Shown in pieces: positions 29,673-35,093 of a stretch of 64,000 nt of DNA (positions within the stretch are counted from its first letter, which is position 1; each line of letters begins with the position of its first letter). This DNA comes from Pseudomonas sp. ATCC PTA-122608 (GTDB taxonomy: Bacteria > Pseudomonadota > Gammaproteobacteria > Pseudomonadales > Pseudomonadaceae), in NCBI RefSeq assembly GCF_001952855.1, contig NZ_LPNO01000046.1, positions 72,847-136,846 on the forward strand, written 5' to 3'. A program made the position numbers and the translations under genes. Below the pieces are notes generated by a model that made no database searches, was not told where the DNA came from, and saw only the letters and a list, made by a program, of their open reading frames with translations.

Positions 29673-29682
29673 ACCCGCTCCC

Positions 29683-29707
29683 TGTAGGAGCGAGCTCGCT
29701 CGCGAAA
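29683..29707 (+). repeat. Single REP, GTAGGAGCGAGC family
   Basis: TGTAGGAGCGAGCTCGCTCG followed by CGAA, 10 bases after the rlmM stop. It has no partner in the next 100 bases, so it is an isolated REP. One base differs from the 30027 copies (CTCG for CTTG), making the centre a perfect GCGAGCTCGC palindrome. Confidence 0.75.
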
Positions 29708-29779: not shown

Positions 29780-30031
29780 ATGAGCCTGACCCCTGATTTA
29801 CCCGTCGACGCCACCCTCGACGCCACCGGCCTCAACTGCCCCGAACCGGTGATGATGCTGCACCAGCACATCCGTGACCTGGCGCCTGGCGGCTTGCTCA
29901 AGGTGATCGCGACCGATCCGTCGACCCGTCGCGATATCCCCAAGTTCTGCGTGTTTCTCGACCATGAGCTGGTGGACCAACAGGAACAGGCTGGCACCTA
30001 CCTGTACTGGATCCGCAAGAAGTCCCTGTAG
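29780..30031 (+). CDS. tusA: Sulfurtransferase TusA
   Basis: TusA (83 residues) carries persulfide sulfur, for example toward tRNA 2-thiouridine or molybdenum cofactor. The active cysteine is C20 in [20 protein letters not shown], the family signature. The fold ends in [29 protein letters not shown] precedes the ATG. The last codon and stop (CTG TAG) fall within the left arm of a REPIN, so the repeat has set or replaced the natural end of the gene. Confidence 0.95.
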
Positions 30032-30127
30032 GAGCGAGCTTGCTCGCGAAGGTCGTTAACGATAACGCGGGCTGCCAGGCTTAACGCGGCGCTCCAGGGT
30101 TTTTCGCGAGCAAGCTCGCTCCTACAG
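30027..30127. repeat. REPIN overlapping the stop codons of both flanking genes
   Basis: CTGTAGGAGCGAGCTTGCTC on the left is mirrored by GAGCAAGCTCGCTCCTACAG on the right. The CTGTAG at each end supplies Leu-stop for tusA (plus strand) and for the MATE gene (minus strand). The interior begins CGAAGGTCGTTAACGATAAC, also found in the 48141 copy. Confidence 0.88.
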
Positions 30128-33071: not shown

Positions 33072-33326
33072 GGCCCGTCTCCTCATCAGGTTGTGTACCT
33101 ACTTTAAAATCACCGCGTGACCGCGTTGTTACAACTCCTTGCGCGGTCAGCAGATCGAATGCCCAGTCCAGCAGAAACCGATACAAATTTCCAGCCGGGC
33201 CTTAGACCGATAACCTCTAGGGCCTGGGTTCGGTAAGCATAATTAACCTGACTCATTGTGATTCGCTCAAGTTCCCCCCATGTAGCTATGTAGGTTCCCG
33301 TCTCCCACCCTCAGGTGAAACCCTCC

Positions 33327-35093
33327 ATGCTCTCAGCCCGTCAACGCCGCGCGATTCGCCTGGCCAGCCGCTTCGTCGCTCCCTACCGCTGGCAGGCCCT
33401 GGGGGCCTTGTTGGCGTTGATCGTCACCGCCGGCATCACCTTGTCCATGGGGCAGGGTATTCGCCTGCTGGTAGACCAGGGCTTCATGACCCAGTCGCCG
33501 CACCTGCTCAACCAGTCCATCGGCCTGTTCATGATTCTGGTGCTGGGCCTCGCGGTGGGCACCTTTGCGCGGTTTTACCTGGTGTCGTGGATCGGCGAAC
33601 GGGTGGTGGCAGACATCCGGCGGCAGGTGTTCAACCATTTGATCTACCTGCACCCGGGCTTCTATGAAAACAACCGCAGTTCGGAAATCCAGTCGCGCCT
33701 GACCACCGACACTACCTTGCTGCAATCGGTGATCGGCTCCTCGCTTTCGCTGTTCCTGCGCAACGCCCTGATGGTGATCGGCGGGATCGTGCTGTTGTTT
33801 GTCACCAACCCCAAGCTCACCAGCATCGTGGTAATAGCGCTGCCACTGGTACTGGCGCCGATCTTGATCTTCGGCCGCCGGGTACGCAGCCTGTCGCGCC
33901 AAAGCCAGGACCGGATCGCCGATGTCGGCAGCTACGTGTCCGAGACCCTCGGCCAGATCAAGACCGTGCAGGCCTACAACCACCAGGTGCAGGACGAGCA
34001 GCGCTTTGCGGTGACGGTGGAAGAGGCGTTCACCACCGCACGCAAGCGTATCCTGCAGCGTTCGTGGCTGATTACCCTGGTGATCATGCTGGTGCTGGGC
34101 GCCGTGGGCGTGATGCTCTGGGTCGGCGGCATGGACGTGATTAGCGGGCGGATTTCCGGTGGTGAACTGGCTGCGTTCGTGTTCTACAGCCTGATCGTCG
34201 GCAGTGCCGTGGGCACTTTGAGTGAAGTGTTGGGCGAGTTGCAGCGGGCGGCCGGTGCGGCAGAGCGGATTGGGGAATTGCTGCAATCGAGTAATGAGAT
34301 CAAGGCGCCCGAGGCTAACGTCATCAAGCTGCCGGAGCGGGTCAGCGGCCGCCTGGAAATCCAGGATCTGCGCTTCTCCTATCCGTCGCGCCCGGATCGT
34401 TTTGCCATCGACGGCTTGAGCCTGAGCATCAATGCCGGTGAAACCCTGGCCCTGGTCGGCCCGTCGGGCGCGGGCAAATCGACAATCTTCGATCTGTTGC
34501 TGCGTTTCTACGATCCTCAGCAAGGCCGCATCCTGCTTGAAGGTCAGCCGCTGACCGAACTGGACCCGCTGGACCTGCGCCGCTGTTTCGCCCTGGTGTC
34601 CCAGAGCCCGGCGCTGTTCTTCGGCACTGTCGAAGAGAACATCCGCTACGGCAATCCATCGGCCACCTTTGCCCAGGTCGAAGAAGCGGCGCGCATCGCC
34701 CACGCCCACGATTTCATCCTGCAAATGCCCGACGGCTACCAGACCCACCTGGGCGATGGCGGCATGGGCCTTTCCGGCGGCCAGCGTCAACGCCTGGCCA
34801 TCGCCCGGGCGCTGCTGGTGGACGCACCGATCCTGCTGCTGGACGAAGCCACCAGCGCACTGGATGCCCAGAGCGAACACCTGATCCAGCAAGCGCTGCC
34901 ACAGTTGATGGAAGGGCGCACCACGCTGGTGATTGCCCACCGGTTGGCCACGGTGAAGAACGCCGACCGGATTGCCGTGATGGACCAGGGGAAGCTGGTG
35001 GCGGTGGGGACGCATCAGCAACTGATCGCCAGCAATCCGCTGTATGCACGGCTGGCGGCGTTGCAGTTCAGTGATGGTACTGAAGTTGATTGA
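33327..35093 (+). CDS. ABC exporter, fused permease-ATPase (MsbA-like)
   Basis: This 588-residue half-transporter has six N-terminal membrane helices (residues about 20-300) and a C-terminal ATPase with Walker A GPSGAGKST, Q-loop SQSPALFFGTVEENI, signature LSGGQRQRLAIARAL, Walker B ILLLDEATSALD and the switch His in VIAHRLATV. It is of the MsbA/LmrA/BmrA type; lipid, drug or peptide substrates cannot be told apart. The ATG at 33327 has AGGTG 9 bases upstream; a GTG four codons earlier is part of that site. The 255 bases upstream contain no gene I can support. Confidence 0.9.
   Translation: MLSARQRRAIRLASRFVAPYRWQALGALLALIVTAGITLSMGQGIRLLVDQGFMTQSPHLLNQSIGLFMILVLGLAVGTFARFYLVSWIGERVVADIRRQVFNHLIYLHPGFYENNRSSEIQSRLTTDTTLLQSVIGSSLSLFLRNALMVIGGIVLLFVTNPKLTSIVVIALPLVLAPILIFGRRVRSLSRQSQDRIADVGSYVSETLGQIKTVQAYNHQVQDEQRFAVTVEEAFTTARKRILQRSWLITLVIMLVLGAVGVMLWVGGMDVISGRISGGELAAFVFYSLIVGSAVGTLSEVLGELQRAAGAAERIGELLQSSNEIKAPEANVIKLPERVSGRLEIQDLRFSYPSRPDRFAIDGLSLSINAGETLALVGPSGAGKSTIFDLLLRFYDPQQGRILLEGQPLTELDPLDLRRCFALVSQSPALFFGTVEENIRYGNPSATFAQVEEAARIAHAHDFILQMPDGYQTHLGDGGMGLSGGQRQRLAIARALLVDAPILLLDEATSALDAQSEHLIQQALPQLMEGRTTLVIAHRLATVKNADRIAVMDQGKLVAVGTHQQLIASNPLYARLAALQFSDGTEVD

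Follow-up and report, generated by a model that had tools for sequence, protein, structure and literature searches.

A REPIN between convergent tusA and MATE transporter genes in Pseudomonas carries the stop codons of both genes in its GTAG tags

The window analyzed here, a stretch of 64,000 nucleotides from Pseudomonas sp. ATCC PTA-122608, contains tusA and a MATE-family transporter gene in convergent orientation, with a REPIN between them (Table 1). The two products match the Pfam families TusA (PF01206, 1.3e-21) and MatE (PF01554, 1.3e-72), respectively. The length of 463 aa for the MATE protein follows the start picked by a codon-usage caller, and the open frame extends to 31909. The rlmM gene is located upstream of tusA, as is a single GTAG REP (CTGTAGGAGCGAGCTCGCTCGCGAA, window 29682-29706), whose start is 10 nt beyond the end of the rlmM stop codon.

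Table 1. Features of the tusA–MATE junction, in window positions
Feature	Start	End	Strand	Description
tusA	29780	30031	+	sulfurtransferase TusA, 83 aa; its stop is the left tag of the REPIN
CTGTAG, Leu-stop of tusA	30026	30031	+	CT followed by the GTAG tag (30028-30031)
REPIN	30028	30125	.	two GTAG-tagged REPs, inverted, 98 bp
CTGTAG, Leu-stop of the MATE gene	30122	30127	-	CT followed by the GTAG tag (30125-30122)
MATE-family transporter gene	30122	31513	-	463 aa; its stop comes from the right tag of the REPIN
T8	30128	30135	+	immediately follows the REPIN hairpin, read on the tusA strand; terminator-like

The last codons of tusA, read from the sequence, are AAG AAG TCC CTG TAG, in which CTG occupies 30026-30028 and TAG occupies 30029-30031. 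Those of the MATE gene are GAA AAA AAA CTG TAG, with the stop at 30122-30124 on the minus strand and the CTG codon appearing as CAG at 30125-30127 on the plus strand. A TAG stop is usually named amber, and at both gene ends the amber codon consists of the final three letters of the GTAG tag, whereas the Leu codon consists of the preceding CT and the G of the tag. The stop-supplying GTAG REPs described in the available text of PMC3733652 are those in which the TAG of the tag is an in-frame stop, and this is the case here for both flanking genes. The two gene ends therefore agree with the sequence-only reading, in which the REPIN was claimed to give the Leu-stop CTGTAG to tusA and to the MATE gene. 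The span given there, 30027-30127, is correct at its right edge and off by one at its left, because the REPIN with its CT/AG edges covers 30026-30127.

The repeat has the features of a REPIN, namely an inverted REP pair with the preferred spacing, a GTAG-type tag 5' of the palindrome, many copies in the genome, and a cognate RAYT candidate flanked by the same REPs. The distance of 98 bp from tag to tag is the commonest REPIN span in the sampled genome (60/70 pairs). In the source genome, CTGTAGGAGCGAGC has 168 + 158 exact matches, compared with 0 + 0 for the reversed pattern, indicating that the repeat is no chance word. Four Pfam matches to Y1_Tnp were found in the genome, on C1, C2, C13, and C17. 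The match at C1:33419-33742, which was identified by its Pfam match alone and is absent from the codon-usage gene calls, is flanked by REPINs of the window type at 33161-33259 and 33828-33926, and is likely the cognate RAYT of the GTAG REPINs. Around the match at C2:225367-225681, none of the searched motifs was found within 900 bp.

To compare the junction with that of relatives, loci were gathered by tblastn on both strands, giving 131 rows (the window, 80 loci of named genomes, 30 from a first whole-genome search, and 20 from a REP pattern search). These rows hold duplicates: the window, L081, and L124 are one genome, and the tree does not distinguish L001 from L130 or L008 from L117. For 11 rows, no MATE gene was detected next to tusA. 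In 48/131 rows, tusA and the MATE gene meet without any spacer in a 4-bp overlap, which is the palindromic TTAA in 41, CTAA in five, and TTAG in two, so that both stops share the same bases. None of these 48 REPIN-free rows has a Leu end on either TusA or MATE. A TusA Leu end was seen in 10/131 rows, and these are the same 10 rows in which a REP tag stops tusA after Leu.

The TusA tails at the empty sites read KKS-A or KKS-V followed by TAA, compared with KKS-L-TAG at the filled site, and the MATE tails at the empty sites are, for example, RIRHVQVPV-TAA (L028) and RIRFEQARA-TAA (L084). Compared with L028, the filled site is retained as far as AAG TCC at one end and CGTGGCG at the other, and the 19 bp between the retained flanks are replaced by the REPIN and T8. 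By this comparison, TusA has swapped one residue and MATE has swapped its last five residues for four. The empty and filled sites diverge at the REP edge. The presence and absence of the REPIN across species fit an insertion, whose exact join is not visible in the compared rows. These comparisons bear out the earlier proposal that the insertion replaced both original ends, and the Leu-stop ends that might have been expected in REPIN-free orthologues, had the match arisen by chance, are absent.

Neither frame is disrupted in the window or in the relative P. yamanorum (path of 0.086 changes per column). The Pfam matches, which cover TusA residues 12-80 of 83 and, for the best MatE stretch, residues 253-414 of 463, do not extend to the residues supplied by the REP. 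Such indirect evidence is consistent with TusA and MATE functions that were unharmed by the insertion.

Other arrangements were also seen at the junction. In nine rows (L034, L054, L058, L068, L072, L087, L088, L089, and L095), it holds a hairpin with A- and T-tracts that is terminator-like in both directions. In L061, it is a 753-bp gap with an array of many REPs. In L097, the MATE stop TAG lies inside a degenerate tag, ATAG for GTAG, and is possibly a further REP-derived stop; this row was left out of the counts of REP-supplied stops.

The distribution of the junction states was then traced on a tree of 116 rows. The remaining 15/131 rows, which include L026 and L067, both with REP-tag MATE stops, were dropped since one of the three gene segments had no match. 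The tree rows comprise 48 with the 4-bp overlap, 32 with a REP whose exact tag is not the stop, 10 with both stops from the REP, seven with the MATE stop only, one with the tusA stop only, and 18 others. The fewest changes on the tree that account for a REP-supplied stop are three for tusA, seven for MATE, and two for both. These changes cannot separate gain from loss, and gain is the natural reading because the surrounding rows are overlap rows.

The rows with both stops fall into two groups. The first comprises the window together with P. yamanorum (window, L081, L124, L001, and L130), and the second is the P. orientalis group (L008, L113, L117, L118, and L119), in which the record named P. 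orientalis is L008. In the P. orientalis group, the REPIN entered tusA at a more distal point (KKAAEP-L), and its body is different. The two-ended REPIN of this group at the same junction is an independent event.

In a wider sample, GTAGGAGC occurs within 30 nt after the TusA Lys-Lys in 20/398 Pseudomonas genomes. With frames read by eye, the tag is the stop in seven of these (G000, G069, G354, G143, G189, G209, and G329, with three different ends, SL, LV, and AAEPL), and the native stop comes first in the other 13. Among 107 REP ends at the junction, only one gene, the MATE gene of L061, reads a few codons beyond the nearest tag. When this gene is set against the 10 tree events, 10/11 are in stop phase (p = 1.3e-4 for equal phases).

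Other genes of the genome that end at a REP were sought in a sample of 2.76 of 6.98 Mb (~40%; L131-L266 plus the window), in which 2265 genes were called by a simple codon-usage caller rather than taken from an annotation. The sample contains 174 GTAG-type REP ends (176 in the count made for the comparison with GTGG), of which 90 face the 3' end of a gene past its native stop, 53 face a 5' end, and seven are not close to any gene. The other 24 lie where a gene reads into the REP. Twenty of the 24 genes that read into a REP stop at the tag and four run on, confirming that further REP-ended genes exist. The REP-tag stops make up 20/2265 called genes and 20/292 TAG-ended genes in this ~40% of the genome.

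The excess of the stop phase (20/24) is significant against equal phases (p = 6.6e-7 vs 1/3). This count includes a weak 41-aa gene (C2:136603), without which 19/23 remain (p = 1.7e-6 for equal phases and 0.004-0.008 for the null based on the phase of CT in genes, hereafter the CT null). Because four REPINs contribute both of their ends, the 24 read-ins are not fully independent. The four run-on genes gain 9-12 residues, indicating that out-of-phase insertion is sometimes tolerated. For the REPIN at C19:6814-6912 (L259), both convergent genes run on through the repeat, with tails VGASLLAKN and CRSELARDGR, which is the opposite of the situation in the window.

Two-ended stop supply was found in three of the 27 convergent REPINs of the sample (window, C1:225814, and C2:189656); given 13 tag stops among 54 ends, independence of the ends would predict 1.6. 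The two further REPINs in the sample led to rejection of the idea that two-ended stops are unique to the window junction, and the P. orientalis group provides an independent case at that same junction.

The phase bias may be purely mechanical, such that the transposase cuts at CT, which lies mostly at codon positions 1-2 (CTN, largely Leu), and no selection is involved. In agreement with this explanation, codon positions 1-2 account for 56.3% of the CT dinucleotides in genes and for 54.0% of those within the last 20 codons, the base before the tag is almost invariably T with C the commonest base preceding it, and CTG precedes the tag stop in 12/20 cases. Moreover, for the read-ins with CT before the tag, to which alone the CT null strictly applies, the fraction that stops at the tag (12/15) is barely above that null (p 0.036-0.052). 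This borderline result slightly weakens the selection reading. However, the overall count (20/24) exceeds the CT null (p = 0.003-0.005), as does the 10/11 at the junction (p = 0.012-0.017), and eight of the nine read-ins without CT before the tag are also in stop phase (p 0.001 vs 1/3), although old CT edges may have mutated in these cases. A mechanical bias as the whole explanation is therefore possible, with a chance well short of even, and selection on the insertion phase is suggested, not proven.

A second REP family in the same genome, with the tag GTGG, carries no TAG and was compared with the GTAG family. For the GTGG family, 266 ends were found in the 2.76-Mb sample, of which 200 face a 3' end past the native stop, 51 face a 5' end, and 15 have no near gene. 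No gene runs into a GTGG REP at any of these ends (0/266, at 6 mismatches). The counts of read-in and native-stop ends are 24 and 91 for GTAG vs 0 and 200 for GTGG (p = 6e-12). For ends within 25 nt of the native stop, the corresponding counts are 24 and 73 for GTAG vs 0 and 91 for GTGG (p = 3e-8), and when only the run-on cases are counted, they are four and 0 (p = 0.04). Allowing 8 mismatches brought up one GTGG read-in and nine ends within genes, which qualifies the zero. Few ends carry other tags at 6 mismatches (GTCG 3, GTTG 2, GCAG 8, and GAAG 1); two of these are read into, and none supplies a stop.

The contrast between the two families fits the GTAG tag acting as a built-in stop codon. 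The GTGG family is no clean control, however, because it differs in the consensus upstream of the tag (AAAT, compared with mostly CT in the GTAG family) and in the median distance from stops (29, compared with 14). The contrast could also come from another transposase or target preference.

The REPIN might instead be kept because it is useful, separating the overlapping convergent genes and adding a hairpin and U8 as a terminator for tusA. The predicted RNA fold has an energy of -65.3 kcal/mol with z -7.63 on the tusA strand (z -8.54 on the other strand), and the first base pairs of the predicted stem include the stop codon. The T8 that follows corresponds to the Lys-Lys codons of MATE on the opposite strand, and U8 is present on the tusA strand only. 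A T7 was also found beside the REPIN at C2:189656-189754. The combination of the hairpin and U8 may act as a tusA terminator. A useful role would also agree with the A-/T-tract hairpins that nine rows carry at the same junction instead, and with the repeated arrival of REPs there, including the 32 further tree rows in which the exact tag is not the stop. On the other hand, the loop is long and branched, a consensus terminator scan (loops 3-8) did not list the REPIN, and 48/131 rows manage without any spacer. Retention of the REPIN for its usefulness is unlikely. Finally, the idea that the Leu-stop ends are ancestral and the REPIN lies downstream of them by coincidence is extremely improbable: although 90/114 of the 3'-facing REP ends do follow a native stop, an ancestral Leu-stop is ruled out for the compared rows by the Leu-free overlap rows and the divergence at the REP edge.

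We conclude that insertion of the REPIN very probably replaced the ends of tusA and the MATE gene, with the GTAG tags stopping both genes in phase. The ancestral junction would have been spacer-less, with convergent tusA and MATE genes sharing a palindromic stop of the TTAA type. A REPIN, presumably mobilized by the RAYT, would then have inserted at this junction with the loss of ~19 bp of the two gene ends, as estimated from L028. In related TnpAREP enzymes, GTAG is the recognition tag, read with varying strictness, and CT is the usual cleavage dinucleotide (available text of PMC8266576). At each end of the REPIN stands GTAG, the recognition tag of the RAYT, usually preceded by CT. A gene running into it in one of three possible phases is read as CTG TAG, or as another codon before TAG, and terminates there. 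In the window, both genes enter in this stop phase, and each has swapped a short variable C-terminal tail for a Leu-stop end and stayed intact. Out-of-phase insertions are fewer, through selection, targeting, or both, and those that do arise may be purged.

This kind of event is already known, since Di Nocera et al. (2013, PMC3733652) state that the termini of GTAG REPs "often provide" neighboring genes with TAG stops. Unlike the present case, that report contains, in its available text, no phase count, two-ended example, empty-site comparison, or comparison with GTGG. The REPINs of P. fluorescens SBW25 are likewise inverted REP pairs with preferred spacing and a hairpin, associated with RAYTs, in the available text of Bertels and Rainey (2011, PMC3116915). 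The main text of PMC3116915 does not contain the words "stop codon", and stop supply is a feature of the present case. In E. coli, ribosomes are stalled by REPs lying no more than 15 nt from a stop codon, according to an earlier study cited in the available text of the RepRanger paper (PMC12306157). These REPs likewise place a hairpin close to a stop codon, but there the stop precedes the REP, whereas in the window the stop is itself part of the predicted stem, at its first pairs. No two-ended stop supply by a REPIN was recognized in the available text of open-licence papers, to which the search was confined. The present analysis adds a two-ended case together with the corresponding empty sites, its repeated occurrence at one junction, and counts by phase and tag; the counts by phase (20/24) and tag (0/266 GTGG) are possibly new.

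The junction is a clean natural experiment in which a mobile element rewrites the C-termini of proteins and leaves the genes intact. By the E. coli precedent in the available text of PMC12306157, a stop codon inside the hairpin stem might affect ribosome release, and the REPIN hairpin may have a ribosome-stalling role. The findings hint that a recognition tag doubling as a stop signal makes landings at gene ends tolerable, and suggest a simple reason why GTAG REPs, unlike the GTGG REPs of this genome, sit in gene ends. We tentatively propose, at a chance clearly below even, that the GTAG REPIN is a two-sided "safe stop cassette", whose insertions at gene ends survive mainly in the phase in which the tag is the stop, and which can colonize spacer-less convergent junctions that the GTGG family of the same genome cannot. 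If this is true, the dual use of the tag would shape where REPINs persist.
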